A stretch of DNA of 64,000 bases, taken from Onthophagus taurus. Taxonomy: Eukaryota; Arthropoda; Insecta; Coleoptera; Scarabaeidae. A program made the translations under genes and the position numbers. The stretch spans positions 8,618,001 through 8,682,000 of the forward strand of contig NC_091967.1 in assembly GCF_036711975.1 (NCBI RefSeq), given 5' to 3'. The notes beneath the pieces were generated by a model, which saw only the letters and a program-made list of their open reading frames with translations, did not search any database and was not told the origin of the DNA. The number at the start of each line of letters is the position of its first letter. Positions within the stretch are counted from its first letter, which is position 1. Positions 4,751 to 46,300 of the stretch are shown piece after piece.

Positions 4751-5157
4751 TCAAGAATAATATACAAGTATCTAGCACTGAATAACAAATAAAACTAGAA
4801 TTAACACTAGACTTAAAACTAGAAAGTTTCGGGTGTTTCTAGTTTTAGGTCTAGTTTTAGTTCAACAAAAATACGCAACATAGTTTTATCTAGTACTATC
4901 TAGCACTGTCACTGGATCTAACACTAGATATAGAACTAGAAACATACAGGTTTAGCCCTACGTCTCATAAGACGGCTAAACCGGAATGTTTCTAATTCTA
5001 GGTCTAGTGTTAGTTCTAGTTTTACACTAGCACTATCACTAGAACTAACACAAGACCTAGAACTAGAATCATTCGGGTTTAGCCGTCTTGAGAGACGTGC
5101 GGCTAAACGCGAATGTTTCTAGTTCTAGGTCTTTTAGTTCAATAAAAATATAAGTAG
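4751..5157. repeat. CTAG-rich palindromic repeat, locus a
   Basis: Begins with the module TATCTAGCACTGAATAAC, followed by runs of CTAGAACTAACACTAGACC, the GGTTTAGCC block, a short hinge containing the AGACG motif, and the reverse complement of the same words. Two to three degenerate palindromic units are visible. Confidence 0.85.
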
Positions 5158-7532
5158 TTGACTTTACGTGTATGAGTCTCGGTTTTAATGATTTGTACCA
5201 ATTTACAACAAATTTACACTCAAATGACTAATTGCACTTAACATCAAAAAACTAATATCAAGTTTATTGTTTTCACTTTTTGACGTTTAAAATTGTCAAA
5301 ATATAAGTGCTACCAACACATTATTAAAAAAAGTGTTAAATTTTTGATTATTTTTAGGTTATCTTTTTTACTTTTCCCTAATAATAATTACCATAAAAAA
5401 ATGTTAATGTGAATATAAAAGTTTGAAACGGAAACGGAAGTGGTCGTTCCAGAAGGGTGGATGTATTCAGAAAAAAAATATAAATAAAAAGAGGAAATGA
5501 GAAAGAAAAAGAAAAAATTCCCCACCCAAAGAGCAATTATACGTTGAAACTAGTACCTATACTGGTGGGTGGAAAACTTTTGGACGACGACGACGACGAC
5601 GTCGAAGAGAAAGAGAGTCGTTAAACGACGGGGGGTGCCGTGGGGGTGCTTTGGCTGGTAGCAGGTGGGGCAAATAGTGAAATAATTTCGTGATTTGCAT
5701 TAATACTTTGACCGGGGTTGGGTCGCAGGCGCTCATAAAAACTCGTTTAGCATATTAAAACGTTGCACGCATCGTCCGGCTTCTCCTAAAACTAAAAGGG
5801 CGAGTTTAGAACAAAAATCAAAATTAACTGCAAAAATAAATAAATATTTTTTGTAAAGAAAAAGATTTTTTGGTCTTTCGAATGTAATATCGGCGATGGT
5901 TTCCTGGTAATCGGGTCTTTAATTTCCGCTCGATCGGTGTTTTCGATGGGATCGATTCGATTTTGAGCCATGGAATTGCCGCAATCGAGGTCCCATTAGG
6001 AAGGAGTTGGTAGGTTTCTGTAGTTGTAGAAATCGTTCCGCTGGCACGTAGACAAACACGGTGCCCCCTTTCTCTCTCACTCTCAAATTTAGGGGGCCCG
6101 TGTCACCATTAACCATAGCAACCGGCGCGTGCATTTCTCGCCAAAATCCAAATCGCATCAAAGCGAAACTCCCCTTTGATAGGTAGGTGGTGACAATTTG
6201 ATCTTTCTCTTTTAACTAGACATATATATATAAAACTCTTCTATTAAATGCTAAAAAATGTTTTATGCAAACTAAAGTAGTAATTTACTACTAAAAATTC
6301 TTAGAGGGCATAGAATCGTTGATGGTATTATCTTAATATTCTCAAGAGACATGAATAATTCATTTAATTAGAATATAGCCTTTTCTCCGTTTCAAGTGTA
6401 TACCCCAGAAATCTCGTTCTCGAATCCCCCCGTTTTATACACGCCATTGTGTCTCTCATCCTCGACGACATTTGACTGTCTGTTGTCGTCGCCAAAAGAA
6501 AAGAACCCGGCCTGTCTCGTTCGGCGAGGGAAGGGAGGAAATTGCTGAATGACCCCCTTCGGAGTAAAAATTGGAGAACTGCTCTTTTCATATCTTCATC
6601 TCCTTTTGTGTTGTTATTATGACCGTAATCTCGACGAAAAAGATTCTTACCGTTTTTATACAGGGTGATCATTCGAAATATCACGGATCATCTTAAATTT
6701 GACTCTTATCCGTCAAAAATGACAGTTCTTAATCTTGATATGTCTATTTTGACATTTAACTTTATAATATAATCTAACATTTAAATATAATATAATCTCA
6801 AAGTCAAGTTTGATACACTCGCATCTATTTGACCCTGGCGGGTAGTTAAGGGTTAATAATGGATTTCTTTCAAGAGTGGGGGAGGAAAGTTATAAATTTT
6901 TTATTAAAAAAAAAAAAGGAGTGAAAAACATTTTTGGCTTTTGAAATTTAAAGTGTAATCGGGGATTTTTTCGCAGCCGGCCCCCCGTTAATTCTATGCC
7001 TCTTTTGTCCGCGGGACCATTCCCGTCAGATGGCGCGACCCACGCGGCTGTAACCCGGTTTATTTACGCCCCCTGCCGACCGGGAGGATATTACTGGCCA
7101 TAAATGCAAATTGCCGAAAGCGTTTTCGTTCGTTCGGGTGAGATTTTTACAGATATTTACCCTTCGTGAAAGAACCACCAAAAAAAATATTCATCTCATT
7201 TTATTATTATTATTATTATTTTCTGTGCAAGTCATCAATCATTTTCATTTTTTTTTTATCTCTGTTTTATAGGTGTCACCAGTAATAAAAGTTTTTATCA
7301 AAAAATACTTTTGGGATGACTCTTAAGATCTCAAATAAGATCTACTTACACTTAATCGGGTTATTCTAAATTCAAAAATTCTTTACCTGGAAGTTCCTTG
7401 CTGTTTTATTTCTCTTTAATTTGTATCATTTAACTTGGTCCAATTGAAGAAGGTTTTTAACCACCCCTTATTCTATCTTTCAAATGTTGACTAAGTCCTC
7501 ATCAGACTGTTCCTCATAGCTGTTTGGCAAGT
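5158..7532. other. Non-coding DNA with simple repeats and GC-rich patches
   Basis: No supported gene. A GAC/ACG trinucleotide run lies near 5583-5602 and a TTA run near 7201-7221. GC-rich islands occur at about 5420-5780, 5880-6180, 6360-6560 and 6960-7150. The last contains an ATGCAAAT octamer at 7104-7111, which matches the POU-factor consensus. These could be regulatory, but a single octamer is weak evidence. Confidence 0.4.
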
Positions 7533-8050
7533 AGTCTGCTTAAGATAAACGTTCCACTGCTTTTGCTGTAACAAATGATGATGTCAGTGTATGTATAATC
7601 TCAACTTGAAATTCGATTCAAAGATTAATCAAATGCAAAGATGTAAATATTCTTGCTTGCATAAAGTATGCTAGCTTGAGACAACTTCATTTTTCAGTTT
7701 TATCTTTGACCTGAATTGAAAAAGCTACTTTTCTACCTTTAGTTCAAGAAAAATATACAACAATCTAGCGCGCTGAATAACAAATAAAACTAGACCTAGA
7801 ACTAGAAAGTTTCGGGTTTAGCCGTGCGTCTTCAGATGCACGGCTAAACCCAAATGTTTCTAGTTCTAGGTCTAGTGTTAGTTCTAGTTTTAGTTCAACA
7901 AAAAGCTATCTAGCACTAGACCGTGAACTAGAGACATTCGGGTTTAGCCGTGCGTCTGAAGACTTACTACAATAAAAAATATATAACAACCTAGCGTTGA
8001 ATAACGATTAAAACTAGAAGTACCGAACAACTCGGGGAATACCCCGAGGT
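7533..8050 (+). repeat. CTAG-repeat element, locus b, with left module and terminal hairpin
   Basis: Positions 7533-7740 repeat the left module of 4482-4750. The core from 7741 has the AATCTAGCGC/GAATAAC module, palindromic CTAG words around 7785-7945, and a second GAATAAC module near 8000. It ends in a perfect hairpin at 8031-8048, CTCGGGG-AATA-CCCCGAG. Left block, repetitive core and 3' hairpin in this order resemble non-autonomous Helentron (DINE-1-like) elements. That family assignment is inference. Confidence 0.7.
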
Positions 8051-9489
8051 ATTAACCCTCTGAGAATAACATTAAAAACTAAAGAATTTATTTTAAAAAT
8101 TAATTTATTTAAATACTATCTTAAGTAGTAATTTTATCATGAATTGATTTTAATCCGTTTAAAGGATTCGTCGATCCATAGAATAAGAGGGGTTAAAATG
8201 AAAGGGCCCTATAGGGTTACACCTCAACGGTGTAGAAGTGACTCGGACCGTTAATAAGGAGCGGAAAGAGAGTTTGCCACCCTTATCCTTAAAGGCTTGA
8301 TTAACCTTAAATTCAATTCGGAAAATGGGTTGGCAGGGGTGGAGTGAAGGGGAATAAGACAGACGACAGGTGAAGGAGCACGCGGAGTCTCGGTGGTCTT
8401 GAAAGATATGGACGCATCTAATAATAGCCCAATGAACAAAACGCCGTGCTAAAAGAGAGAGATAGAAATTTGCCCCGAGTTATTACGGCGAGGGTGAAAT
8501 TTAAGGGGTGCACCTCTGGTGATGTTAAGACAAAAGGGAAAATCTAATCGATAATAAGCACATTGATTTTTGTTTTAGAAATAACATTTTTTTAAAATTA
8601 AATTTAGGAATTTTCTGATATTTTTATGATTAGGTTGTCAACGATACAATTGAAGTAAGAAACGTCAAAACAGACTTATATATATATTTTTTGTTTCTTT
8701 GTTCTGTTTGAAAAGAATGAGTATCCCCAATTTTCCCCCCTTCGGATTGCTTCTCGAATCCCCTCGGATTACAGGGGCTGTTTTTAAACAGTATTTGAGC
8801 GGATTTAGTTTTATGATTGATATGTAAATAATTCGGAGAAATCCCTCAATTTTTTTTCTCAAATTGATTTTTGAATAATTCAGCATCATCTCCCGTCAAA
8901 ACTCAAAAGTAACTTTAGGCTTAATCTTAATACATCACCTAACAAAGTACAAATTGACATCCCTAACCGAGGTTAGGGGAGATAGTCCCCGGTACAAAGT
9001 ACAAACCATGGGGATAAATATTTAATATATTAGCTCCTGGAGATAACAGGAACTTGTAAATAGAGGGTTTTAGCGTCTATTCCCTTCACGCCCTACTCCC
9101 TCGAATACGTTCCCGGATTACGTCCCTCTCCCCCATATACAAACCCTGGCATCCCTATACACTATCAATTATTCCAACGACGGTGAATCCTGGCAATATT
9201 TACCCCGGAATCCGCATAGCGCTGCGGCCCTAGATCCCGTTTACTTCCCGTTTTGGCACTGATCCCAGTTTTAAAACGTCGCCGCGGTAGTAACGCAAAG
9301 GGTTTAATCCACACGAATTTACTGTTTTTATCGACATTTATGGTTTTCGGGGGCCAAAGGTACCCGAATTATATTTTATAACCAGATTCACATGAATTAT
9401 AAGGGTTACACTAATTATATACTAGATACGCTATGTGGAAGATCACACTTGGATTTGCAAGCACTATTCATTCATGACGGACTAGGTAA
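8051..9489. other. Non-coding DNA, no gene seen
   Basis: No coding evidence. GC-rich stretches lie at about 8200-8530 and 8940-9300. Short open frames here lack domains. Confidence 0.4.
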
Positions 9490-10090: not shown

Positions 10091-10402
10091 AAAACACAAA
10101 AACTAGCACTAGAATTAAAAACGTTCGAGGGTAGTCGTCTTAAGAGACATAGCCGTATGACCCGAATGATTCTAGTTTTAGGTCTAGTGCTAGTTCTAGT
10201 GACTTTGCTAGATAACGCTAGTTAGCACTAGAACTAACACTAAAACAAGAAATATTTGGGTTTAGCCGCCTTAAGAGACGCACGGCTACTACTTTTCTTT
10301 CAATAAAAATATACAACAATTTATCATTGCATAACAATTAAGACTAGAACTACCGTCCTTGATTTATACATCGTATAGACAACGCGGAGAATACCCCGAG
10401 AT
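10091..10402. repeat. CTAG-rich palindromic repeat, locus c
   Basis: CTAG words, the GGTTTAGCC block and the AGACG hinge lie at 10091-10290. The ACAACAATTTATCATTGCATAA variant of the end module is near 10312. An imperfect copy of the terminal hairpin (CGCGGAG-AATA-CCCCGAG) is at about 10383-10400, in the same relative position as at locus b. Confidence 0.75.
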
Positions 10403-12954
10403 TATCTATGAAAATGGAATAGAGTAATATGAGCGCTAGCATTTATATTTAAATATATATTCCGTTCTCCAAAGTCCGTTCTAACGAGATCCGTTATATC
10501 GAGGATTTAATGTTTTTTTTTAATCATTTGAAGAGGGGGCAACAAGTGTCATTGAACGCACGTTTGGTGTCATTGTTTGACTATCGATTGGGTTGACACG
10601 TCCGTCGCGTCATCGTATGCACAGATACAAAGGATGTCCCGACACCAGCCATCCCCCTCGTTCCTCGTTTCCCACATCACAACACGCAAAACAATCCTCC
10701 GTCCCTGCACTTTCCCCGGACGCCAATCAATTATCGACTTTGAATTTGATTTGTACGTCTCGTTCAAACAACATCCGATTTTTGTTTTATTTCCTTATGA
10801 GTTCCATCTCTCTATTGCGTTTTTCTCATTCCGGTTGTAATAGAAATGTAGATTGTCGAGATCTATAGTGGCATGCAACCGGGCGGTTAATGAACGTAGC
10901 CCAGGCTCGTTATCATTTAAATTAGTCGCGATGTCCTGCGACGAAGCCGCCAAAGCGATTTTAGCGCCCCCCTTTTCCTCCCCGTTCTCATTGCTGAGTC
11001 CCGGAGTCGCTTAATTGAAACGGATTTCGTCGTTTATCTTACAACTTTACCGGGGGATTTTATCGGGGCGCGTTCTCCACCATCAGGTGACAGCACCGAT
11101 TAACTTCTCGCCAAGGTAAACGGAAACTCAAAGTGGATTTTCAACCCGGATAATAACCAAACCTAACTTCACTTTCTTCTTAATTATAATAAAATAATAT
11201 TGGAAAATATTTTTAGAATGGAAAAATCTTATAATTTATGAGTATGTAAATTTTGTCATCATTTCTCTTGGGGCAATTAAACCGGACGCGCGTTCTACCG
11301 TTGCGAAACCCGAATCCTCCTCCGTTCGCCCCCATGGCTTTATGACGGTGCTAATGCGGGGTCATAAATATCTCGGGTAGAAAATAGAGGCCGGAAGCAG
11401 GTAGAACGGCGGCCCAAGCAGGACGTTACCTAACGGGAAACGATGCGTCACCAGAACTGCAAAAATATTCCGTACCCGAAGAAAATCCATCTCAAAACCC
11501 TCGAGTATTTTCACCACATTTTTCCCTGAAAACGGTTTAAACGTAACTTCACGATGCCTATCGCGGTGAAAGAATGGTTACCTAAACCAACAGGTAGCAA
11601 CCCTCACATACACAAAAAGGACCTTGGGGTCCCTTAAATTTGATAACGGTCCCTAAGGTTTAGGAGTGCGAAAATTTAGATTCTTTTTTTCGTTATCTTG
11701 TATTTTTTAGTATTAATCACGGTTGAAAATTCGGGGGGATAGATTTAAAATCCGGGTTTTGTGAACACAACAGTACAATATCTGTTGTATCTCGACCCTA
11801 GGTCCAGAAAAAACTCGCCCACCCTAAGCTTAACTCCCATTGTTGACGAGCTAGCATTGTGCTGTCAGGTTCTGTCAAATTCACCGCCACGTGACCACCC
11901 TCTTCTCATCACAAATCCTAAAATTAGTGTATGCGAGTTTTGCTTGTCCGACAACTCCCCCAAATAAAAGTGTTCGAGGGAGTTTGGGGGACAAAAATTT
12001 TTATTTAAACTAACCTTAAAGGTGATATCCCAAAATTTTCACAACATTTAGTTTCTCGTTTGTTAATTTTCGATTACAAACCAATTAATAAGGGTTGTTT
12101 GTAGAGGCGACCCTTCGATTCGGTTCTGTTCGATTGAAATTTCGTTGTCCGGAAAATTACCTTTCCACGATTACAAATTGATCAATTATTGAAGCAAAAA
12201 CAGAATTTTAATAGGTTATTTTTTTAATCACGTGAACGTAGCGAATGGTGATGCCAACCTAAAAAAATTAAAAAACTAATTTGTTTTATACAGTGTTAAA
12301 ACATTAATTATTTAAAACTTAACTATTTAATGAGTTTATAAATTATAAAAAGAAAATGGAAATAAATCATTAAATAATTAATTTTAAATAAGTTGTTTTT
12401 ATTAAACGTCAAGTAAAAAATGAAATGTCAAAAATATTTCTAACCTCAAAGTTTGTTTTGTAATCGGTGGTATTGTGCTGTCGGATATTTTGTTACAACA
12501 ACGATGAAGGTATAACGAGAACGTAGAAAATAACGACGTATACGACGAGGATGGTCTGGTCGTATTGATGTAGACTTGGGTGGTCGTGCCAAGTTCAACG
12601 TTCAGCTCACGCCACCATTCCCATTGTCTGCTGCTCTACTCTCTCCGGTCTAGGATTCCTGTGGAACCGCTATCGAGCAGGAATCCTCGTTCCGAAGCAT
12701 CCACCCGACGACGACGAGAAGGTTATTTATTTCTCACAGGCTATTTACCCCGTAACTTCAAATACGAGGAGACGTATTTTAAAAATTTTCGTCCTAAGTG
12801 AATTTAAAAGATTTTTTTTTACCCACCCATGGATTTGTAGATCTATATTTCATATGTATGTTCCTGACGGCAAAGATATTCTTCCGGAAAGGGGGAGAGA
12901 TTTCCAGGCAATCTTCAAGTTGTGTCATTGATATATTAGGGGAGTGAGTTTGTA
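10403..12954. other. Non-coding DNA with GC-rich islands
   Basis: GC-rich stretches at about 10550-10760, 10860-11480 and 12500-12760 stand out from AT-rich surroundings. No open frame has a recognisable domain or consistent splice sites. A 9-bp inverted repeat (GGATTCCTG/CAGGAATCC, 12653-12661 and 12678-12686) could form a stem-loop. These are candidate promoter, 5' UTR or enhancer sequences for the gene to the right, but this is unproven. Confidence 0.4.
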
Positions 12955-13770
12955 AGAAGGTTTATACCGGGAATTTTATATAACTTATTAACATATGAAT
13001 GCAGTCATAGTTACGAAACTACTCTGCACTTGTTCCACATAAAATGTCAAAAGTTTTGCAAAGAAAAAGTTTTGCTTGGAAAAAGGCCACCTCAAGAGAC
13101 GCACGGCTAAACCCGACACTTTCTAGTTCTAGGTATAGTGTTAGTTCTGGTTTTAGTTCAATGAAAATATGCTATATAACAACTAAAACTAGAACTAACT
13201 CTACCACTAGATCTAACACTAAACCTAGCACTGTAAACATTCGGAGATAATACTAGTGTAAAACTAGAACTAACACTAGACCAAGAACTAGAAACATTCG
13301 GGTTTAGCCGAACGTCTCTCAAGACGGCTAAACCCGAATGATTCTAGTTCTAGGTCTTGTGTTAGTTCTAGTGATAGTGCTAGTGTAAAACTAGAACTAA
13401 CACTAGACCAAGAACTAGAAGCATTCGAGTTTAGCCGAACGTCTCTCAAGACGGCTAAATCCGAATGATTCTAGTTCTAGGTCTTGTGTTACTTCTAGTG
13501 ATAATGCTAGTGTAAAACTAGAACTAACACTAGACCAAGAACTAGAAACATTCGAGATTAGCCGAACGTCTCTCAAGACGGCTAAACCCGAATGATTCTA
13601 GTTCTAGGTCTTGTGTCAGTTGTAGTGATAGTGGTAGTGTAAAACTAGAACTAATACTAGACCTAGAACTAGAAACATTCAGACATGTTACATTTTATAT
13701 GAGACAAAGTATAATACTGGTACTATAATTTTGTATATGTATTGCATTTTAACTGAAATTCACTGTAGAT
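12955..13770. repeat. Composite repeat: transposon flanks around CTAG locus d
   Basis: The left flank 12957-13060 matches the inverse of 1281-1360. Positions 13085-13690 are the clearest tandem CTAG array: the word GTGTAAAACTAGAACTA or GTGTAAAACTAG starts at about 13256, 13383, 13510 and 13637, a 127-bp period. The right flank (ATTGCATTTTAA then AATTCACTGTA, to about 13767) is shared with locus f at 20750-20785. Each unit is itself an inverted repeat with arms of about 50 bp. Confidence 0.8.
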
Positions 13771-14014
13771 ATTCCCGCAGCAAAATTTATAGTTCTCTTT
13801 CTCTCTTATAATAACGAACCAATTGGCTCAATTAATTAAACTGTGACATTTGTTCTACAATTTGTTCAGTTTGTGTTAGTTGAGAAGGATTCTTCGTCTT
13901 GAAAACTAGAAAGAAATGTTTTCTGAATTAAATTACTATAAATTGCAGGTTAATTTAAGATTTAAATCGTTTCACTATCTTTTTGTTAAATTTTTGTTTT
14001 CTTTTTATTTTCAG

Positions 14015-17000
14015 AGGGAAGCGACTCAAAGAGATGCGGACCGTGAAAGACGAATGCGTGCCGATAGTGAGGCCAGGGCCAAACAGGCTGTACAAGAAGC
14101 AGCGAGATGCAGATCAAGGCTCAAGTTACTTACTAGTGAATTTGCAAGGTAAAGACCGATCATTTTCTTATCCTTTTTTTTTATAATCCGATCCGGGAAA
14201 GATTAATAGTTTTAATTAAGTGTCAAGGGAGCAAAATTCGTCATTATCACGAGTTTTTAGGAGGCCGTATCGTAAAGAACCCCCGCCGTTTGTTACACTA
14301 CCCCTACTGTTAATACTGGTAACAGTTGGTATTAATTATGTTTCAAGTTGCAATCCTAAAAAGAATTTTTTTCTTTGTATATCGCAAATAATGTTACATG
14401 AGAACCGTTTTAATTAAAATTATTATAGATTTAAGTTGGAAGCTCCGAAGAGGTACGTAAGCCCCCTTGAAACATTCTCCGCTAAGTAGATTTAACGGTT
14501 TCCCTATCGCGGAAGATCACAACGCGATGCCAATTATCCTTCCACTTTGATGTGACATAAAGTAGATATCTCTGCAACCAATTCTCCCTTTTCCCTATTG
14601 GAACATAATCCCCCTTTCCACGACAGAAAAGCGGAAATAAAATAATCGTATTACATTGGAGCATTAAATCTTGACGATTTTTGTTAGTTATTTATTTATT
14701 ACAAGATTTTCTCGGCAAAATATCTAAAAAGTTAGGTTATGTTGTGAGTTTTGACGTATTGTGTGAAGTGTTATCAAATTTCTTTTCTATAAAAAAAAAT
14801 CATGATTTTTAATTTACAATATTTTCCAATTTGCTCTAATTTCTGTTACTATACCTATATTAGAATCGATAAAATGGGTTAATATCAATAAATAAGTATA
14901 AATTGTGTTTGGGATTGACACAAAGAGTATCAAGGTCAATTACGTTAAAACGTCAAATCTATTTTGGATTAATTTTTCGTTATTTTCTTACCTCGATTAT
15001 TTTTAAGTGAAAAATAGGTGTTAATCACAATGTTATCACAATTAATTTTGTGATAAAAGAAATACAAGAATTTTTTGTGATTGTAAATTTCAATTTAACG
15101 CATAAAGTCGTAGATTCAACTTCACGGGAAAATGATACCAACCTAAAAATTACGAAAGCACCAAGTCCAATTTTTATAATATAATTTTTGTTTTTAATTT
15201 AATAAATTTTTTAATTAACTTATATTTATAAATATTAATCGAAATTTGATATTAACGTGTGTAACATATAAATGAAACAACCAGAAGTCCGGCGCTGCTA
15301 ATTTTTCCTTTCTGTTATTTCTGTCCTTTAACGTGTTAACTTATATTTGTTATTTAACTAGTACTAGCACCCAACCCAACCCGAATGATTTTAGTTCTAG
15401 GTCTTGTATTAATTCTAGTGATAGTGCTAGTGTAAAAGTAGAACTAGCACTAGATCTAGAAACATTCGGGTTTAACCGCACGTCCCTCAAGACGGCTAAA
15501 CCCGAAACATTCTAGTTATAGGTCTAGTGTTAGTTCTAGTTTTATTTGTTATTCAGCGCTAGATTGTTGCATAATTTTCTTGTACTAAAAGTAGAACTAA
15601 CACTGGATCTAAAACTAGAATCATTCGGGTTTAGACGTATGTCTCTTAAGACGGTTAATCCTGAATGTTTCTAGTTCTCAGTCTAGTGTTAGTTCTAGTA
15701 TTGCACTAGCACTATCACTGGAACTAACACTAGATCTAGAACTACAAACATTCGTTTTTTTAGTGTTTCAATTGATTTTCAATTAAATAAAGAACTCTTC
15801 ATTTCCCGTTACGGGAAATCTCATAACTTCGGATACGAGGAAGTATTTACTGGATGAAAGGGGAACGAGGCGACGCCACTAAATCTCACCCTCTTCCCCA
15901 ACCCAACGAAGAGGTTATAAGGAAGTTTTTTATGACACACTACATCTTTGGGTATTGATCGTCTTCCAGTAAACGTGGTCGTCGTCTTGGAAAGCAAAAA
16001 CATAGAAACCGACCACGAAAATCGTTCGACTATGTAGAGTTCATGTTGGAAGAGTATTAAGAGATTTCATTTTGAACGTTCAAAATGCTAATAATAGATG
16101 TCGTTTCGTGGACGGCATCCAATAATAAAATTTCTACCTGAATTCTAAATCCCCGGTTTAATATCCGATTTAGAAAAGGAATTTTATTGATTTTGTTCAA
16201 GTGAATGGTGCTACTTAGATAAGTTATTATTGATTCAATTTTCAACGTGTTGGTTATCTGTTGTACTCCAGACTCGAGGATAATCAATCAAGAATACCTC
16301 TTTGTAATTAATCAACTTGGTCACTAATTAATCATCATTAACTCATATGTGATCATGTCTCTTTATTGTTTAGAATTTAGATGAGAAAATTTTAATGCTT
16401 TAGTAAAGAAATTTTAATAATTAAGTCTGAAAAGTTTTCTAAAGAACGAAAACAATCATTGAATAAGAGAGAAAGACGAACTTTTCCACTTAAACTCATC
16501 CATGGTCCGTTTTCTCACGTTAAAACGAACAAAAATAAGAGATCTCCTCGGTTCAATAGACCTGTCTCCTGTCCTAAAGAACTTTACCAACTTTACCAAA
16601 TCGATTTTCAACAGAAGTCTCAACAAGTAAAAGATATCTATCGGATGATGTTTAAAATGTGGTTAGAGTTAACCAATTTCAGACGCGCACCGTCATTCGA
16701 TTAGTTCTCGTCCTCGGTTAACGCGATTATGATAGCTTTCTCCATGACGAAGTCTTCGATCTTTGATGTTAAAGGAGAAAGAGGGATGAAGTGGCTTATG
16801 CCAAGGCATCTGACAGTGAGGGGATCTTCGCAAAGTGGCTGACGAAGGGATCTTGGTACCTTTCCATAGTTTAAGGACCCTTCAGAAATCCTCTCTCTCT
16901 CTACCGTCCTAACCACTTGACTACGACTGTCTGTTACCAATAGGAAGAGTAGCGGGACGAAAAAGTTTTATGATTCTTCCAGACCGAAAGGAATTTTTTA

Positions 17001-20000: not shown

Positions 20001-23000
20001 GTCACACGTGTAATATACCTTCTTGAATGTTATAACCTCGCTTTTCATAATTTAAGGATCACTTTGTAAATTTAGTTTACCACAAACGACTGAAATACGA
20101 GGAGATGGATTCATTGTTAGATAGAACTATTATATAAAGTGTTACCTCCCCCATTTTGAAGGGGGCCTCGAGGTTGTTTACTAAAGAGTCTTATCTCTAT
20201 TTAGGCAAGCCGAGTTTCTGTTTCCAAAAACAATACGGAAAATCTCTCTGAATACACAATGACGATAACTTACAAACAACTCCATTTTATTCAAAAAACT
20301 TTGTAAACATGTAAATAAAACATTTTTTGAATGACATTTATTTCTGTCAATGTCAAAAATTTTATTGCCAACCTCAAAAAACAAAATAAACTAAAATCAA
20401 AGTTATATTTATTTATGAATATGTTTACCTGGAAAATCATATAACACGCAATATATGAATGCAGTAACCATAGTTACATTTAAAACTAGAACTAACACTA
20501 GACCTAGAACTAGAAAGATTCGGGTTTAGCCGCACGTCTCTATAGACGGCTAAACCTGAATGATTGTAGTTTCAGGTGTTGTGTTAGTAGTTCTAGTTTT
20601 ACACTGTGTTAGTTCTAGTGATAGTGTATATAGTTTTGTATAAATAAATAAATAAAATATGGAACATAGTGATATCTTATGTTAACTAGCGCTACTTACC
20701 ACTGTCACTAGAACTAACATTAGACCTACAACCAGAAACATTCAGATATTGTACATTGCATTTTAAGTAAAATTCACTGTATAATTTCAAAAATGTTATC
20801 TTACTATTTAAACACAACCAATTTTTTTTTTAAACAAAACGCAAAATCTCCGCGTTCATACAACGGGCGGTGACTTTCCACCAGACAACCCACTCGGGTC
20901 GCTTTTTGGGGCTCCACCCCCTTCTCTTCGTATACACACTACAAAGCCCTATTGTACACACGTCTCGTGTGTTGGATATATTCAAACGTGGGGTTTGTTC
21001 GAAACTTAGCTTGCTGTAAACTGCAAAAGTGTACAGCTGGAACGATAAAGAGCCCCCCTTCTCTCTGCTCGGCGGTGATTAGTAGAAAAGGGATCCCCCT
21101 TTGAAGGGTAGGTTTTGACCCCATATTGATTCAAATGCGGTTTACTCACAGGATATTTTCAATTTTCCAATTTAAAAAATCCTGTTTTTATTACATTTTG
21201 ACAGTTTGCAAATTAACATAACCTTACTTACACTATTAACATAACCTCACATTAAAAATTTTAAATTTTAGGTTGGTTTCTAAAATTTAAACGTTTATTT
21301 TGATAATTTTCAAACGTGACAGTAACACAAATCATTCAAAACTTGAGTTGAACACCGTGAATACACAAGAGAAGTTTCTTGAAAGGTTTTGATTAGTTGA
21401 TATGTGCTTGAAATTCTGGAGAACGTCGATTATAAGGGGATAATTGGTACTTTGGGGAGAAACGACGCCTGGAGACTCCAAAATCGAACGGTTTGTGAAA
21501 GTGGGAAACTAAGGGGGTTATTGTAAGGGATGGTAATGGGGGGCTAATTATAATCGGTGGATGCATTGAAAGTACTTCAATTCGTTTAGGGATAATTACG
21601 GGATAACTTTAGTTTAAAAAGTTTGTGTTGTTTTTAGTGAAAATTTACAACGATTGGCCCCGGTATAAACTGTATGATCCGAATTTAATGGGGCCCAAAA
21701 ACGACAAGTTATTCCGTCCAATAAATAAAACGTTGACGCTCGAACGTTTTTGGGGGGCCCCACCGACAGGACCGTATCTGGGTAATTTATAAACGCGGTT
21801 CTGCTTTGAATTTATGATATCGGACGCTATTAATGAGAGATTTACCGTAAAATACCAACCTCGTTTAACGTCAAAACAAATTGATTAAAAACTTGGAATT
21901 TTAGGCTCACATTTTAAACCACCAAATTGATTCGGGTATTATATACACGATTTTTAATAAGATTTGAAATTCTAACCTCACATTTTATATTTTTCGATTT
22001 TGAAATCGAGTTATTTTATTAAAGTTATTTTAGAAAGTTCATTCAAGGTGTAAAATCAACATAATCCAATCTTTATGAACCTCTCAGTATATTATACCTA
22101 CTCAAAATCCTTCCGTAGGCGTCCTAATTGACTGGTTCACGACACGGGATTAGATTGAAACACCTCGGTGAGCTCTTATTTAATTAGATTAAGAGCTTAT
22201 CTCGAGCAAAACGGTCGCCACGCCGAACGTTATTCGTGAAAACTGGGTCAATTCTCTTTTCTCATCACACTTTCCCGGATTTTCGGGTAAAAACCCTCCG
22301 TTACTACACAAATTGGACTACGTTAAAGGGGCCAACACCCCGAAACACATTCATTCGAACCTCATCAAATACAATAAACCTTTATAATTATCTTGAGATC
22401 CCATTCAATAATTTTCTTAATTAAATTTGAATTTTGAACATAATTTATTTGTTTTTGAAGTAAACAAACATTATTTGACAACTGACAAGATATTAAAAAA
22501 ACTAACTTCACGCGGTTACTAGTTTAATTTTTGATTTTACTCATAGATGGCGTTTATATAGTTTTAAGAAACGTCAAATTGGTTTTATGTCAAAGTGTTA
22601 ACCTCCGCAAACGCTGAATCCAACCACAACTTAGTACTGGCCAAAATAATCATGAAGACTCATCAAAAAACAAACACAAAAATAGACAGTATCGCATCTT
22701 AGAAACGGACAACATTAAGAAGCTGCCTGGCAAAAAATAAAATGAAATATACTCAAAGCCGCCGAAGAGGTTGTGGGAAGAAGAATATCTAATAAATCTA
22801 CCAAACGAAATACGAACAACAACAACATCCAATACATCAAGAGAGCGCATTGTGAAAAGTTCTCTGCAGACTTGGAACATGACCTTTATGGAGGCCAGAG
22901 GAAGGTTTGGAACATGTTAACAAAAGAATCATTCGAACAACAGAGATGAGGAGAATCTACGATCCATAGCAGGCTGCACCCTGAGGGACCATAAGAGAGG

Positions 23001-29000: not shown

Positions 29001-31128
29001 TACAATTAGTTCTAGTTTCAATTCAAGAAAAATATACAACAATCTAGCGCTAAATAACAATCAGGCCTTTACCCATAATCGAATAGAAAGACCGTCATTA
29101 AAAAATCGATAAACTATGTAAAAATAGAAGGATTGGCAACATTTCCAGATCCTAAAATTGTTTAATTTTTGCAATAATTAATATTAAAATTCAAAATCCC
29201 CTCTATAAAAGCTTTGGTGACGTTTACGAGGTTTTCGCGTAAGATCAAAAAATCTGCATTCCCAAAATTAACGTGGATTGTCTATATCCCAGAAGAAATC
29301 ATTTTTGCTATTAGAAATTCTGTTATTACTGAAATTAGATTCATCTCTCAAAAGTATTCAGTTCAATACATTTAAATTGCTGTTCAGTCAATTACAAAAT
29401 ATCACTCTTCTGTCAAAATCACAAATTTGTTTCATCGCTTACTATTTTGAATAAAGCTATGATCTAAGTAAACGTATATTTGCTGTTAATAACATTGTGC
29501 ATTTGCGTTCATTGTTAGACATAGGCCTCACCTATTCTGTTCCATTCGATTTTTTTCTGTGTTGTCTGAATCCAATTGTTGGTTATTCTTTTGACATCGT
29601 CAGTATCGACCTCTCCAGCTTTCTTTGCGTTACTTTGAGCATCATAACCGGAAGCACGCATTGATTGAAAGCCTTCTTTTTCAAATGTATAGGAATATCG
29701 CTCTTGACGATATCTCTAAGTGATCCAGAAGAAGATGCTTTTGTTCAGTTCGTTTGTTTGACTATCTCTCAATACACGAACCTCATGGCCAAGATATACA
29801 TAGCTGTCAACCCTCTCAAACTCATTATCTCCAATGTTGATGTTAGAGCTGCAAACAAGATTTGTTATAAATTTTGATTTCTTCATATTGATATTTAGCC
29901 CGACTCTTGCACACATTTCCTGTAAGTCGTTCAGCATCAGTTTCATCTCTCCGCGTAGCAATTTACTTAGGTATTTGCCATCGATGTTTATGCCTTATCG
30001 GGTCCAATCCAGTTGTTTAAATGCGCTCTCCAGGACTATAATGAACAATTTGGGGAACATTGTATCGCCTTGTCTTATCCCACGCACAATTAATAACACT
30101 TTATCACATTTCCAACAGTAATTGAGATATCTGGTATGACAGCTAAAATCAAACACACTGTATTTGGGGGTTGATATCTCAGCAGCCATTCTATGAAATA
30201 ATCTAAAAATTGGCAATCAAATGGTGGCTGCGATTCTAAACTGAAGAGCCATTAGTTTATGTCTAATAAAGAATTATTAATATTGATTGTTGTAATTTTT
30301 GTAATTTAGGCTAGAGCAAACATTTTAGACATAATGATGACGTCCGTTTCGAGTGATTCATCACCAACATCATCTTGTGGGGGAAGTGTTACAAGCGAAT
30401 CAACAGAAGAACCTCCTGATTACGGCCAATTACATAGAATACATCGATTTCATCGACAAAAAAAAGGTACTTTATTTAATTTAATTATAATATGTGTTAA
30501 CTCTTTTAGTTGATGTAGTAGTTTTTGTTGTTGATTTGGATTTTTAATAATAATAATAATTGTTGCATGTTTGTTTAACCATAAATCCTAACGGTTTATT
30601 ACTTTCTGGTGGAGGTTGATACGTTTAAATCCCTAAATTGTTAGTTAAATAAATCGACGAATTTAATCGAAAAAAATCCTTTTTCTTTCCTGCATTTTAA
30701 AAATAACTTTGTATGCTATTAAAAATCCTTTCCTTTTATTATTATTTCTTATTTATTTATTATTTTATTCAAAATTGATTGAAATTTCTTGTATTTTCAT
30801 CAACAATTTGTGGGGGTTTAAGCGTCATCAACGTGTACTCCAATCACGGAAACGGCAGTTTGAATCGAGGCCCTTCCTTGTAGCACACGCAGCCAGACCG
30901 GAAATGATGGCGGTCGTTAGAGCTTCGATGCCACCAGCTCGACCTTCAATAATTGGTCGGCCGGATTTTTTTGTGCGTTACGGTGAGAAGGAACGTGAAG
31001 CGGTCGCTAGTTTTGATTTTCTCGATGAATTAACAACGACGAGTAGCAGTTGTTGTTCCGTTGAAGAGGATTCTTTGCCAATCGATGAAGTTATATTCAA
31101 TAATAATAAAACTGAAAGCGTTGTGTAA
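14015..31128 (+). CDS. NCKAP5/NCKAP5L-family protein, 5'-incomplete
   Basis: Eight exons join in phase: 14015-14148, 19423-19513, 24628-24846, 24922-25975, 26904-27908, 27963-28678, 30310-30466 and 30884-31128, giving 1206 residues with no true start seen. Residues 1-75 are coiled-coil. Residues 76-148, with the core YERCLDDVANQVVKALLAQK followed by LREE and an E-x-QNRAL segment, match the most conserved block of vertebrate NCKAP5 and NCKAP5L (Cep169), which are centrosomal, microtubule plus-end-associated proteins. The rest is low-complexity and Ser-rich. Three SKIP motifs at residues 925, 935 and 954, in a basic Ser/Pro-rich tract, fit the SxIP EB1-binding consensus. The human proteins have about 100 residues before the first block, so upstream exons are probably missing. 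A short in-phase ATG exon at 13916-13948 is a possible alternative start. The last acceptor, 30884, is chosen by phase and its pyrimidine tract and is less certain. The introns hold CTAG repeats and LINE fragments. Confidence 0.8.
14149..19422 (+). other. Large NCKAP5-like intron
   Basis: A 5.3-kb intron between donor AG|GTAAAG and acceptor TTTTCAG|A. It contains CTAG locus e (15355-15760) and otherwise AT-rich sequence. Open frames at 16459-16704 and 18480-18776 lack domains. The stretch 18540-18780, with many CA-rich words and an AATAAA at about 18756, might be an LTR fragment, but no second LTR or primer-binding site was found. Confidence 0.6.
15355..15760. repeat. CTAG-rich palindromic repeat, locus e
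   Basis: Two to three palindromic CTAG units with the GTTTAACC/GTTTAGAC hinge blocks. The end module appears in reverse orientation (TTATTCAGCGCTAGATTGTTG near 15546). It lies within the first long intron of the NCKAP5-like gene. Confidence 0.85.
20427..20785. repeat. CTAG-rich repeat, locus f, with the same flanks as locus d
   Basis: The left flank (TATAACACGCAATATATGAATG and CATAGTTAC) and right flank (ATTGCATTTTAAGTAAAATTCA then CTGTA) match those of 12955-13770. The core 20478-20740 has one main palindromic unit. Loci d and f are therefore two copies of one composite element. Confidence 0.75.
22640..23215 (+). pseudogene. LINE reverse-transcriptase C-terminal remnant (RTE-like)
   Basis: The + strand translation from about 22970 reads GCTLRDHKRGEDIREHCGIQ, then DIV, a stop, and W-S-R-T-R-R-R-AWRGHIERM with RLPKIARD. 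This has the typical form of the C-terminal tail of insect endonuclease/reverse-transcriptase LINEs (DH.R.EDIR, W..HI.RM, RW motifs). In-frame stops and frame changes show it is dead. The preceding 300 bp are more decayed but in the same sense. It sits in sense orientation inside an NCKAP5-like intron. Confidence 0.65.
23453..23761. mobile_element. Short element with about 33-bp terminal inverted repeats
   Basis: The left end GTCCGTAAAGTGCATTGTAC and the reverse complement of the right end GTCCGTAAAGTGTATTCTAC agree over about 33 bp, continuing CAGGTTG(A/G)CCAGA. The 309-bp body has no coding capacity. The 11-bp word CATTGTACCAA lies directly outside both ends (23442-23452 and 23762-23772), so it is either the target duplication or part of the element. 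Confidence 0.65.
26035..26800. repeat. CTAG-rich palindromic repeat array, locus g
   Basis: The largest array in the window. The word CACTATCACTAGAACTAACA starts at about 26200, 26316, 26443 and 26570, a spacing of 116, 127 and 127 bp. Units alternate with the GTCTTGAGAGACGTGCGG hinge. End modules (CAACAATCTAGCG) are present at about 26108 and 26711. It begins just 60 bp after a donor site of the NCKAP5-like gene, so the readthrough frame past that exon runs into it. Confidence 0.9.
28995..29065. repeat. CTAG-repeat end-module remnant, locus h
   Basis: Only the TTAGTTCTAGTTTCAATTCA segment and the ACAACAATCTAGCGCTAAAT module remain. A truncated copy in an NCKAP5-like intron. Confidence 0.7.
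29515..30216 (-). pseudogene. RTE-clade LINE fragment, antisense in intron
   Basis: On the minus strand, an upstream piece near 30120-30000 contains RGIRQGDTM-PKLF and LDW motifs. A second piece at 29961-29716 contains MCARVGLNINMKKSKF and the Y-V-YLGHE motif. Remnants at 29690-29520 read QCVLPVM, TQRKLERS and W-I-Q--Q-K-IEW--IGEAYV. This order (RT palm, thumb, C-terminal tail) is that of RTE/BovB-type insect LINEs. Stops and frameshifts show decay. It is inserted antisense between exons of the NCKAP5-like gene. Confidence 0.75.
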
Positions 31129-32840: not shown

Positions 32841-33130
32841 AAAACTAACCTTACTTAACATTTCTTCACGGTTTAATTAACATTTCAAAAGAAAACTAAA
32901 TTTACTCAATATTCCTTAATGGTATAATTGACATTACAAAAGAAAGCTAACCTTACTCAACACTTCTTCACGGTTTAATTAACGTTTCAAAAGAAAACTA
33001 ACCTAGCTCAACATTCTTTCACGGTATGATTGAATTACAAAAAAAAAACTAACTTAACATTCTTTTGTGGGATGATTAGCATTTGTAAACAAAACTAACC
33101 TAATCCAATGCAACATTCTAACTAAAACTA
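32841..33130 (+). repeat. 52-bp minisatellite, about five copies
   Basis: The phrase AAACTAACCTTACTCAACAT followed by TTCTTCACGGTTTAATTAAC and ATTTCAAAAG recurs at about 32841, 32893, 32945, 32996 and 33048 with substitutions, giving a period near 52 bp. No coding capacity. Confidence 0.75.
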
Positions 33131-35849: not shown

Positions 35850-35995
35850 ATTCTAGTTTTAGAGATATTTAATGAAGTTATGACGCACGGCTAAACCCGA
35901 TACTTTAAGTTTTAGTTTTACACTAGCACTATCACTAGAACTAACACAAGACCTAGAGTAGAATCATTCGAGTTTAGCCGTCTTGAGGGATGTGC
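35850..35995. repeat. CTAG-rich repeat fragment, locus i
   Basis: Contains GACGCACGGCTAAACCCGA, ACTAGCACTATCACTAGAAC and GTTTAGCCGTCTTGAGGGA. One palindromic unit, partly deleted. Confidence 0.8.
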
Positions 35996-38258: not shown

Positions 38259-38264
38259 TTTATT
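38259..38264 (-). terminator. Poly(A) signal candidate for casein kinase I alpha
   Basis: AATAAA on the minus strand, about 140 nt after the stop codon at 38405. If an alternative distal exon near 35606 is used, later signals would apply. Confidence 0.4.
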
Positions 38265-38404
38265 TCTCCACACTTGTTTTAATGAGGATCACCCCATCAT
38301 GGGTTCACGGTGGAAAAAAAAAAAGAAAAAAAAAACAGAGACACAAAATGAGAGACTAAATTAGAAAACGCTTCTACGAGTTATTATTATTCAAAAAATC
38401 AAGA

Positions 38405-41400
38405 TCAGTGGCCCTTCGCAGATGCCTTCACAGCGTCTGTGGCCAGATGGGGGGGATTCACTTTCGGGTGTGCCGTGATCACTTTCGACAACTTCCTGTC
38501 AACGACTTCTTTATCTTTATCTTTATCACGACTTACTACAACACCCGAAAAAGAAAAAAAACGTCCAAAAAGAAAATAACGTTAACGTAAAATTTTGTTT
38601 TTAAAATTTTCGTTTTGGATTACTTTGCGAACACTTACCAATTTGTGGATTGACGGCTTGGGACGGTTGTGCCTGCGTGGAGGATCCGCACGCGGCCCCC
38701 GAACCAGCCGCTTTTTGTTTTAGCATTGTCCAATCGAACGTGTAATCGTATTGATGATTCAAAGTGCGAAACAGTATACGGAACAGCTGCCTGAGGTACA
38801 TGTAATCAGGGGCCTCCTCAAATCTAAGACCTCTACAGTAATTCAGGTACATGGAAAATTCGGCTGGAAAACCCTAAAAATTTAAACAAAATTAATTAAT
38901 TAATTTTTTTAAGACTTTTAATTTGTTAACAATCGGAAATAGAAATGTATAGTAATCTCATTCAGATTATTTTTATCTCATTTTAAGTATTGATTGTTTC
39001 ATTTAAAAATTAAAATAAAAATTTTACCTTGCATAAAACTTCTACGGGAGTAGACATTTTCTTCTCGCTAATCTTCTCGTACTTTTGCTTTTTGGTGGCG
39101 GCTTTTAATCCTTGCCAAGGCAAACATCCACGATTGAAATACATAAGAACGTAGCCGAGACTCTCCATATCGTCGCGTCGCGACTGCTCGATACCCAAAT
39201 GGGCATTGATCGAAGCGTACCGAGCGGTCCCCGTCAGGTTCTTGTCCTCACGGTATCCGATGTGACAACGAGTACGCATATCGCGAAACTTCTTTGCCAA
39301 ACCAAAGTCGATCAGGAAGAGTTTGTTACAGTGACGTCCGATGCCCATTAGGAAATTGTCGGGCTTGATGTCACGGTGTATAAACGATTTGCAATGCACG
39401 AACTCGACGCGACCGATCATTTGATCGGCCAGCATCAGTACGGTTTTTATTGTAAAACGACGCGAGCAAAAATTAAAGAGATCTTCTAAGGAGGGACCCA
39501 ATAGGTCCATTACTAATACATTGTGCTCTTTTTCTTGACCATAGTATCTGCAAGAAAAAGAAAAAAAAATGATTACAATAGAAATATTTTTATTAAAATT
39601 AACATAATATATTTATATAAAACATATCTTGGGCAATAAACTTTGAGATTATCAAGATTAAGAGTGAATCAGCAAGAATTTGGCAGAAACGAATCACACG
39701 TTTCTTTAATTTTGCCAACAAAAAGAAAAAAATGTGATTACAATAGAAATATTTTCGCTAAAATTAACATAATATATACAAAACATATTTTGGTTAATAA
39801 ACTTTGAGATTTTCAAGATTAAGAGTGAATCAGTAAGAATTTAGCAGAAACGAATCACATGTTTCTTTAATTTTGCCATATCGCAAATTGGTCTGGATAA
39901 TCAAAATTCTTAGTACTCATCAAATCCGTAGACTACAAACCCGCAAGTTCTGGCTAATGATAAACCATGCAGCATTATAGCAGTTTTCGAGATTTATTAA
40001 TTGATCAAGTTTAAATAATAAAACCTGCACCATGATGAATACACTACATTGGTCAATGGAGAATGTCAAAAGTCTTCCATAACATTGAAGTGGAATTCTG
40101 ATATTCTTTAGCAAATGGTGAGGTTAAGATAAGGTGGGAAAGATCCTACACGAAATGAGACATTTGCAGAACGTCAGACTCAGTTGCAAAATTTTTGGGT
40201 TGAGATTATAAGATTATATTTTGCAAAATAATCAGGTTGGGTTTGCTTATGACATTCAATTGAGAGTCTTGGACTAAGAATGAGGTTGAGACATCGAGAT
40301 GGTATTGGTTCTGTTCGAATTGTGATACTTTTTGGTTCATGATGAGGTTCTATTGGATTTATTGCACACTTCAGGATGTAGTTCGGTTGACACTTCTATT
40401 GCTTATGTTTTATAATGATATCAGGGTGAGATTTTTGAATTTCCCATGAGACTGGATTTAGATATTCTTGGACTCAGACTGAGGTTAAGATATCGAGATA
40501 GTATTGGTTCTGTTCTAATTTTATTACGTTTTGGTCCATGATGAGGTTCGATTGGGTTAATTGTTGAGGATGAAATTCGGTTGACACATTCTATTTCTTA
40601 TGTTTTATAATGATATCAGGGTGAAGTTTTTGAATTCCTCATGAGACTGTATTGAGATATTCTTGGACTCAGAATGAGGTTTAGACATCGAGATGGTATT
40701 GGTTGTGTTCGAATTGAGATACTTTTTGGTCCATGATGAGTTTCGATTGGGTTTTCTCATGAAACTGGATTCAGATATTCTTGGACTCAGAGTGAGGTTA
40801 AGGCATCGAACTGGTATTGGTTATTCAAATTGTGATACTTTTTGGTCCATAATGAGGTTCGGTTGACACATTCTATTTCTTATTATTTCTTTTGATATCA
40901 GGATGAGATTTTTGAATTTCTCATGAGACTGGATTGAGATTCTCAGATTCAGAATGAGATGAAGACATCAAGATTTGATAATTGGATAATCTCGGATATT
41001 AGATTATGATATAGATTACGATGTTATATTTGATGGCAGTTATAAATCTTGAAACTAAAACCAGAGCTAACATTAGCACTAGAACTGACACTAGTCTAGT
41101 GTTCATAATAATAATAATAAAACCCGAACCTTTCCAGTTCTAGATCTAGTGTTAGTTCTAGTTTTATTTGTTATTCAGCGTTAGATTGTTGTACATTTTT
41201 ATTGAACTAGAACTAACACTAAAGCTAGACCAGTTCTAGTTCTAGTGCTAATGTTAGTTCTGGTTTTAGCTTCAAGAACATTAACACTAGAAATTTCAAA
41301 CTTAATAAATATAAACAATTACGATAAATTTTAAATGTGCGATGCATATTTATAAAACAATTTGCAGACCCATTCTTGATTATGGAGCTCCCATCTTCCT

Positions 41401-44400: not shown

Positions 44401-46300
44401 TTGTAAGCGCTAACAGACTGAGTATGAAAATACGAAACAGTTTTAAAAGTAAAAAATACATCTATATATCAATATTTATCTTATCAATATAGAAATACCT
44501 ACCACGTGTGGCGGTAAATTAAATAAAATAATATACATTTCATGTGAGATTTTTGTAAATGAAAGGATAAACATTTCATTTAAAACAATCAAATGATTAA
44601 TTAAAAACGTTTACTAACAAAAACTTGGATAACAATTCGAGAATTGTAAACCTATCAAAAACGATAAGACTCAAGGAAATTAACAAGTAATGAGTCAAGA
44701 TAAATTTAAACAATTTTTGATAAAAAAAATCTATAACATAAAAAATTAATGTATCATATACAGTGAAATTCCTCTAATTCGAACTTCTGCACCTTGAATT
44801 ATCCTCTAAGGCGAATAATTTTCGTATGGTCAAGCGTTTTACCACGTTTCCAATGTGTTTTTATCTTTCTATGCCGAATTCCACTAACTTGAACTGAACT
44901 ACTATGAAATTACTTCTCCTTTAACTTCTATATGTGGAATTTTCCAAAGAATAAACTATTTGAATTCGTTCTGTAAGGCAACAGACGCGCGGCTATAAAC
45001 CCGAAACTTTCTAGTTCTAGGTCTAGCGTTAGTTCTAGTTTTAGTTGAATAAAAGTGGACCTGGAACTAGAAACATTCGGGTTTAGCTGACTTATGAGAC
45101 GCATGGCTAAACCCAAATGATTCTAGTTCTAGGTATAGTGTTAGTTCTACATAGTAACAGTCCTAGTGTAAAACTAGAACTAACACTAGACCTAGAACTA
45201 GAAACATTCGACATTATTACGAAACTTTCTAGTTCTAGGTATAGTGTTAGTTCTAGTTCTAATTGTTATTCAGCGCTAGATTGTTGTATATTTTTATTCA
45301 ACTAGTTGAAAGGTTAAATATATGTATTAAAAAAGTAAATTTCTATTTTTTTTCCTTTAGAGCTAAAATTCAACTAATTCTTCTCTAACTAGAGGTTTTT
45401 GTTCCACTCCCTTAGCAACTTAAAGGAATTTCACTGTATTTGTATATATTTTAGCATCAAAAACATTGCAATCAATTTATTTAAAAAAAAAAATTACTTA
45501 AAATACTTACCTGATATGTGGTATACCGATTCCTCCATGAAGGATCTTGTATAGCTTACTCTCATATAAAAGTTGTGGATGTCTTGCTCGAACTGATTCT
45601 AGTTTCACAGCAACTTCCTGGATAAAAAAGCAAAAAAAAAAAATATTAATCTGATTTCCTGTTGAAAATTACAAATTAATGGTAAGGTTTAGTCATTGGC
45701 CTTCAAAGAACGAAAAAACAATTAAGAAACGTAAAGAAAAATAATAATAAAAGATTCTGTTGAAACCAAGAAATGGTTTTGTAATCATTTTTTTTTATTT
45801 TGTATTTTGCATCCTGGTCGTATAACCTACATTCGAAATAATATGGTTGCAAAACAACGTCGCATCAAATTTTTTTTAATTACTTTTTATCATCGATTTT
45901 TTTACGTTATTATCATTATACGTGATTAATAATAAAAGGTGTTATTGAAAATTATTCGCTGCGAGACTTGGTTTATTTAGAAAAGTTTTCAAAAAAGAAG
46001 CTTTGGGTCAAAACCAGATATGGCTGCCGAGAAACTTCGTGGAAGACGACGGCGATCATCATGTCAAAGGATTCTATTAAATCCTAAAACTCTCTTTGTA
46101 TCGAAATCTCTGCGTTTTCATATTTTACGTTAATGTGATTTTTTTATGGTAACGCCCGTGAACGCACTCACCTCGCCGTTCGTAATGTTGATACCCAAGT
46201 AAATGTCACCAAAAGATCCACTACCGATTTTACGGACTAAACGATATTTTCCACCAACTATAAACTCAGGCTTGACGACCAGTGTGGCTATGGATGCCAT
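38405..46300 (-). CDS. CkIalpha: Casein kinase I alpha
   Basis: Five minus-strand exons join in phase: 46300-46172, 45617-45511, 39547-39028, 38873-38639 and 38535-38405, giving 373 residues, close to the usual length of about 340-365. CK1 kinases are monomeric Ser/Thr kinases; the alpha form primes beta-catenin and Ci/Gli and acts on clock proteins. Visible motifs are the GSGSFGDIY glycine loop, EEVAVKLES with the catalytic lysine, [19 protein letters not shown] and the [20 protein letters not shown] segment. The [20 protein letters not shown] tail identifies alpha rather than delta/epsilon. The activation segment reads HIGYRED where most CK1s have HIPYRED. The last exon encodes a DKDKDK-rich tail ending in ASAKGH and has a weaker acceptor (TTGTAG|T), so the C-terminus is the least certain part. 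The 6-kb second intron is full of repeats. Confidence 0.92.
39552..39880. repeat. Tandem duplication of about 165 bp at a splice acceptor
   Basis: Two adjacent copies (about 39552-39715 and 39721-39880) share AGAAAAAAATG, GATTACAATAGAAATATTTT, AACTTTGAGATT, AAGAGTGAATCAG and AAACGAATCAC in the same order, with about 90 percent identity by eye. The first copy starts directly upstream (in transcript sense) of exon 3 of CkIalpha and so contains its polypyrimidine and branch region. The second copy duplicates those signals. Confidence 0.8.
40266..40975 (+). repeat. Tandem array of a roughly 195-bp unit
   Basis: The phrase TTCTTGGACTCAGAATGAGG followed by ACATCGAGATGGTATTGGTT and TTTTGGTCCATGATGAGGTT recurs from about 40266, 40465, 40661, 40778 and 40950. 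The fourth interval is shortened by internal deletion. It lies within the long CkIalpha intron. No coding capacity. Confidence 0.8.
41045..41300. repeat. CTAG-rich repeat, locus j
   Basis: CTAG words in both orientations with the reverse end module TTATTCAGCGTTAGATTGTTG near 41170. The hinge block is replaced by an ATAATAATAATAATA run. It abuts a LINE 3' end on its right. Confidence 0.8.
41320..41810 (+). pseudogene. Jockey/CR1-like LINE 3' end
   Basis: The frame from 41342 reads [20 protein letters not shown], then a segment containing [12 protein letters not shown] and [16 protein letters not shown]. This is the C-terminal region of Jockey/CR1-type reverse transcriptases (YK..I-P-L-YG-P, LE..Q/R...I). 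It is followed by an untranslated stretch ending in AAATAAATATC at about 41790. The copy is 5'-truncated next to CTAG locus j, in the CkIalpha intron and antisense to that gene. Confidence 0.7.
43321..43348. repeat. Near-perfect 28-bp palindrome
   Basis: GCTAAAACGTGTC at 43321-43333 and its exact reverse complement at 43336-43348, separated by AG. It lies in a CkIalpha intron stretch (43010-43400) with an unrecognised open frame. It could be a dimeric protein-binding site or chance. Confidence 0.6.
44759..45439. mobile_element. Pogo-like MITE split by a CTAG repeat
   Basis: The left end TACAGTGAAATTCC and right end GGAATTTCACTGTA (44757-44770 and 45426-45439) are inverted, with TA at both borders as expected for the Tc1/mariner/pogo superfamily. 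Its right inner sequence (GTTGCTAAGGGAGTGGAACA in reverse complement) matches the related element at 61249-61410. Positions 44975-45312 inside it are CTAG locus k, so one element inserted into, or was captured by, the other. Confidence 0.75.
44975..45312. repeat. CTAG-rich palindromic repeat, locus k
   Basis: CTAG words, GGTTTAGC blocks and the reverse end module TTATTCAGCGCTAGATTGTTG near 45264. It is nested inside the pogo-like MITE above and is the rightmost member of the family in this window. Confidence 0.85.

Follow-up and report, generated by a model that had tools for sequence, protein, structure and literature searches.

A palindromic repeat family at the locus

The window, meaning the whole 64-kb stretch of DNA analysed here, contains several gene pieces and a family of palindromic repeat units, the CTAG family. 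A repeat profile, built with nhmmer from the unit, refined once on the window and used with an E-value cut-off of 0.01, finds ten clusters of the repeat between 4791 and 45,260, with E-values down to 1.5e-37. Some of the clusters are associated with elements bearing terminal inverted repeats (TIRs), which we call F1, F2 and F3 and refer to as carriers.

4791-5140: array of three hairpin units with linkers, no carrier end recognised (nhmmer)
7781-7966: array of about 1.5 units that ends in the hinge (nhmmer); a 22-bp fragment of the F2 right part lies at 8027-8048
10096-10514, plus strand: array (10096-10288) with the right part and right TIR of F2, the F2 end being at 10514
12965-13767: F1 element whose two ends are present, with TIRs flanked by TA at 12965 and 13767; the array 13085-13682 lies between them
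13246-13680, plus strand: 127-bp tandem array of 3.4 copies inside the F1 element 12965-13767 (TRF)
15368-15757: array, carrier not recognised (nhmmer)
20426-20781: F1 element around the unit 20482-20599; right TIR from alignment and pattern, left flank from alignment
26029-26789: array in a putative intron, carrier not recognised (nhmmer)
29006-29060, plus strand: arm end and linker without a 127-bp unit (alignment)
35881-35995: partial units, carrier not recognised (nhmmer)
39010-39612: gene piece, casein kinase I alpha-like
41057-41267: diverged unit, linker and part-unit, carrier not recognised (nhmmer)
44759-45438: F3 element, TA-flanked TIRs TACAGTGAAATTCC around the array 44979-45260
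48060-48683: gene piece, isocitrate dehydrogenase
51000-51800: gene piece, short-chain dehydrogenase
52317-56067: gene piece, Avl9
61247-61409, minus strand: F3 copy without an array, the end at 61409 read by eye

The sequence-only reading had described a dispersed palindromic family at eleven loci. Whole or partial palindromic units are present at ten of these, but at 28995 only an arm end and the ~50-bp linker are found. The words held to be common to all loci are less widespread than claimed: a 19-mer occurs five times on each strand and is absent at 10.1, 29.0, 35.9 and 41.1 kb. The 127-bp period at 13.2 and 26.3 kb is recovered by TRF at 13246-13680 (3.4 copies) and 26312-26683 (2.9 copies), and a further period-127 stretch lies at 4900-5132 (1.8 copies). 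The last unit ends at 45,260 and zero units follow within the 64-kb window (nhmmer, E 0.01), in agreement with the absence stated from 45.3 to 64 kb. The family as such is borne out by units at ten separate window loci and throughout the genome; it is not confined to this locus, as the assembly search described below shows.

Within the F1 element at 20426-20781, the repeat span found by nhmmer extends from 20482 to 20751, and a degenerate left end, TACCTGGAAAATC, can be read by eye.

The unit is predicted to fold into a long hairpin

The repeating module is a ~110-bp hairpin whose hinge is asymmetric; it alternates either with a ~17-bp spacer, which gives the 127-bp period, or with a ~50-bp linker (TTCAATAAAAATATACAACAATCTAGCGCTGAATAACAA...). 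The inverted repeats listed for single units have arms of 34-54 bp that are 74-94% complementary, with 2-16 nt between the arms. Steps from unit to unit are mostly 121-128 bp, and steps of 99 and 136 bp are also seen. The loci analysed contain 241 non-overlapping units grouped into 47 runs, with 1 to 29 units per run, and 188 of the units reach ~95 bp or more; six overlapping loci (L001, L003-L005, L007 and L037) were left out of this count. The smallest arrays hold less than one unit and the largest ~29 units. The arrays are homogenised locally: in the 12 arrays that have at least five units, identity within an array is 0.900-0.996, compared to 0.896 between arrays. In the L029 array, 16.4 units are 99% identical; in L031, a higher-order repeat of 363 bp has 98% identity.

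Folding as single-stranded DNA was computed for two window units and one unit of the L029 array. The three have predicted energies between -40 and -49 kcal/mol, where shuffled sequences average about -10.5 kcal/mol (z of -12 to -17). Together with the inverted repeats of single units, this supports the long-hairpin potential that had been read from the letters.

Such folding would be expected if the repeat were an RNA gene, or a source of small RNAs, whose hairpin is maintained for its structure, a reading that we consider very improbable. Similarity between the two arms of a unit (0.920) does not exceed that between arms taken from different units of one array (0.933). Changes on both sides of a pair occur in 62 of 8973 cells, where 35 are expected if the sides change independently, and 45 of the 62 restore the match; this mild excess can be produced by the relatedness of units within arrays alone. 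A search of Rfam gives no match at the gathering score within the window. The arm comparison gives no clear sign that the hairpin is kept by selection, and a functional hairpin was set aside as an explanation for want of clear support from this arm-pair test.

Abundance and placement in the genome

The genome assembly (290.8 Mb, 33 contigs) was searched with a 30-base word from the arm, allowing up to 2 mismatches. It matches at 12,585 and 12,452 places on the two strands, compared to 0 for the control. Since every unit has two arms, this corresponds to roughly 12,500 units or more, a figure that leaves out diverged ones. An orientation bias was considered because, among the matches listed for contig C1, 58 exact plus-strand places precede the first on the minus strand; the idea was dropped as the strand totals are even. 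Exact 30-mers have no match in the viral and prokaryote collections.

In a sample of 20 stretches of 10 kb, spaced along contigs C1, C3 and C11, the repeat is matched in 7 stretches and covers 3,286 of 200,000 bases (1.6%), of which 1,412 lie in one cluster (L017). The stretches without a repeat match comprise four on C1 (11-26 Mb), four on C3 (6-21 Mb) and five on C11 (3-26 Mb). Long arrays are found distally, with 32 of 38 non-self places, among the matches listed, within 15% of a contig end. The corresponding figures are 16/39 for F1, 3/39 for F2 and 9/39 for F3; all four lists hold the best-scoring places of the respective search and are not random samples.

A classical satellite forms long heterochromatic or centromeric arrays. 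Here, the assembled runs have 1-29 units and lie at many separate places, a result that rests on the assembly, in which collapsed or unassembled arrays may be hidden.

The usual insect telomere repeats are not seen in the assembly. Five copies of TCAGG have 0 exact matches, while five copies of TTAGG give three overlapping matches at one internal place, the backward control giving 11.

Arrays lie inside elements with terminal inverted repeats

All-against-all comparison of the outward flanks of arrays yielded recurrent ends. Those of F1 read ...GCGAGTTATATGAAATTCCCGGTA and ...AAGTGAAATTCACTGTA, that of F2 reads ...GGTCCGTTATATCGAGGTTTTACTGTA, and F3 has TACAGTGAAATTCC at both termini. At E 1e-4, the 400-bp flanks of F1 show no match to those of F2. 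The idea of an independent repeat with ends of its own was rejected on this comparison, as several of the recurrent flanks are the ends of TIR elements. At least three kinds of element, short and apparently without coding capacity, contain arrays; their TIRs differ, and TA flanks them. The sequence-only reading did not include this placement of many arrays within transposon-like elements.

Each carrier search scored the best 40 places in the genome, 39 of them non-self, and the tallies refer to these 39. In the F1 search, 31 matches stop at query position 440-449, which is the TIR end ..GAAATTCCCGGTA; array sequence is present in 39/39, a figure favoured by the query, which held both carrier and array. 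For F2, 22 of the 39 matches start at query position 251-255, the TIR start CAGTAAAACCTC, and 22 continue from the left part of F2 into the array. For F3, 25 matches start at the TIR start (query 35-40) and 30 stop at query 256-263, where the window array begins, so that the F3 search alone is no proof of arrays in F3 copies. Two further F3 copies that were fetched, L045 and L046, both contain an array. The L046 copy has both TIRs, one hairpin and one linker, with TA beside each end.

TIRs are found at both ends of a single copy in each family: in F1 at window 12965-13767 and L016:7236-7641, in F2 at L008:1049-2830 and L031:1479-5205, and in F3 at window 44759-45438 and L046. TA stands beside both ends in the two F1 copies, the window F3 and L046; the terminus patterns that were searched began with TA, so the list they gave favours TA flanks. 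Among nine F2 termini, six read TA, two read CA (L037, which is the same place as L008, and L038) and one is ambiguous (L044). The right end of the window F2 reads AA. Common termini recur at high copy number (40 places scored per carrier search), and F1-F3 have the TIRs, TA flanks and copy number of miniature inverted-repeat transposable elements (MITEs). The F2 terminus has what we take to be a resemblance to pogo/Tigger. A literature search for the words tested gave three papers, none of them, judging by title, about transposons.

No transposase was tied to the carriers in this analysis. Read by eye, the 25 longest ORFs of the 26 loci fetched include none that looks like a pogo transposase, and no transposase is seen among the ORFs of the F2 copy in L010. 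An ORF at L012:1957-2862 reads by eye like a Tc1/mariner-type transposase and has no link to the CTAG family. A fragment at L029:3640-3800, which by eye resembles a Tc1-type transposase, adjoins the 16-unit array there, suggesting that this array interrupts or borders another transposon.

Further candidates and remnants are present in the window. A solo F1 end lies at 1276-1365, with no CTAG unit within 3 kb. The array-less F3 copy at 61247-61409 was rejected as a strict empty site: its interior differs from F3 as well, so a deletion derivative is as likely as an array-less form. The stretch 7400-7731 was rejected as a fourth carrier, having one other match among those scored, itself in the window.

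Association of carriers and arrays

Queries restricted to carrier sequence place a carrier piece beside 16 of the 33 array clusters that had not been chosen through a carrier; none was recognised at the other 17. In the window, a carrier piece lies near 5/10 clusters (random placement mean 2.1), one of the five resting on the 22-bp fragment at 8027-8048. The random sample gives 3/12 (mean 1.2), and a fourth cluster there, L015, has an F2-like terminus by pattern only. For long arrays the count is 8/11, a small excess over the random placement mean of 6.1. Several of the carrier queries (window 10356-10514 and 44759-44977, and those from L008, L016 and L031) derive from loci that were scored, and these match by construction.

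The clusters with no recognised carrier, and the homogenisation of arrays in place, would suit a dispersed satellite of the ordinary sort that spreads on its own, for instance as circular DNA re-inserting at short homologies, and that entered MITEs secondarily because both are common. We regard this as quite improbable, since sharp termini are common to array-bearing copies at dozens of places. These termini indicate that carrier and array moved together repeatedly.

The joints between carrier and array differ between the families. F2 enters the array inside the linker, at AGCGCTGAATAAC. In most of the F1 copies read, the carrier leaves at ..AGAAACATTC, within an arm. The F3 joint is at an arm or the linker, and differs between three copies.

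The ends of the runs (n=94) cluster: 64 fall at a unit edge and 21 close to the hinge, at folded position 42-57, which leaves 9 at other positions. Window ends close to the hinge are those at 7966, 10288, 13085, 26143, 26789, 35995 and 44979. It is conceivable, if rather unlikely, that the hairpin and linker module is itself a mobile foldback-type element that ends at the tips of the hairpin (hinge AGACG/CGTCT) and has frequently inserted into MITEs. This would account for the arrays without a carrier and for the three different carriers, and the run ends favour it. However, the unit-edge class is inflated by fragments under ~44 bp, which go undetected, and the F1 joints are common by descent, so the clustering of run ends is a lead only. 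The variable F3 joint also argues against a module with fixed ends, as does the one array-less comparison, which has no duplication beside the module and may reflect a deletion.

Probable capture and dispersal of a palindromic satellite

Taken together, we find it likely that the CTAG family is a palindromic satellite that forms the interior of several non-autonomous MITEs of the Tc1/mariner-pogo kind with TA flanks, and that it was captured, spread by transposition and lengthened locally. A palindromic tandem repeat would have existed beforehand, and three MITE lineages would each have captured a piece of it in a different phase; family-specific joints are as expected from such captures. Transposases acting on the MITE ends would then have dispersed the captured array, and a location inside TIR elements would explain the dispersal of the repeat. 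Unequal exchange or slippage, perhaps aided by the hairpins, may have lengthened the arrays, chiefly in the distal chromosome arms, the within-array identity being the basis for assuming local growth. The order of events, that is, capture by MITEs as opposed to an independent element, is not proven.

More tentatively, the satellite could be a passenger of passengers. It would have moved among at least three unrelated MITE families of one genome by using whichever transposase acts on these, and its hairpins would have provided both the breaks for capture and the slippage that lengthened the distal arrays. We put this forward as a possibility that is open to considerable doubt.

The satellite captured by MITEs, our preferred reading, belongs to a kind already known from other animals, the transposon-carried satellite. 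In Tribolium beetles, euchromatic satellites form arrays in gene-rich regions, as the CTAG arrays do, a likeness of placement. The Tetris foldback transposon of Drosophila virilis is likewise a DNA transposon linked to a satellite, and its tandem repeats reportedly belong to its long terminal inverted repeats. Where carriers are recognised, the CTAG repeats are instead internal to short, unrelated TIRs and do not form them.

Helitrons and Helentrons have no TIRs, make no target duplication and end in TC...CTRR, unlike the recognised carriers F1-F3 with their TIRs and TA flanks. Mollusc Helitrons and Helentrons carry satellite arrays, with the same arrays across different elements (PMC12628747), and for one of the satellites examined the junctions map within the palindrome (PMC5139131). 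The CTAG arrays resemble them in being carried by transposons and found across different elements.

A close parallel is the Xenopus element miDNA4 (Scalvenzi and Pollet), a Tc1/mariner MITE whose internal satellite is present as a single monomer or an array, and for which capture of a pre-existing tandem repeat was proposed (PMC12628747). Both are TIR elements whose interior is a satellite monomer or an array of variable length. The CTAG family differs in its palindromic monomer, its beetle host and the occurrence of one repeat in three TIR families.

Six words of the repeat were looked for in print and none was found in the literature searched. Within these literature searches, neither the repeat sequence, nor the palindromic monomer, nor its presence in three TIR families of one genome was found described, and a prior description is possible.

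The family offers a clear and abundant case of a tandem repeat whose dispersal is probably due, at least in part, to several different DNA-transposon families, and in which a comparison of sister species could show whether the satellite or the transposon came first. It is also a caution for repeat annotation: where such arrays are masked simply as 'satellite', MITE insertions are concealed, including some beside or within genes.

Surroundings of the arrays

Other tandem arrays in the window, at 32841-33053, 39551-39878 and 40267-40753, have units of 51/102 bp, 161 bp and 195 bp and seem unrelated to the CTAG family.

The left flanks of the first two CTAG arrays (4523-4834 and 7575-7817) are 68% alike. 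Among the places scored, the flank at 7400-7731 has no match outside the window, which suggests an old local duplication. A direct repeat of ~128 bp, 88% identical, flanks the first array at 4356-4484 and 5153-5279, and may have arisen by local duplication as the array arrived.

The array at 26029-26789 probably lies in an intron, judging from a donor-like GTAAGT near the end of the upstream ORF and from the next long ORF, which starts at 26837. The upstream ORF (24922-26079) is long, and its 3' end extends into part of a CTAG unit, with the donor-like GTAAGT preceding this part-unit; on this reading of the letters, the overlap probably represents read-through into the intron.
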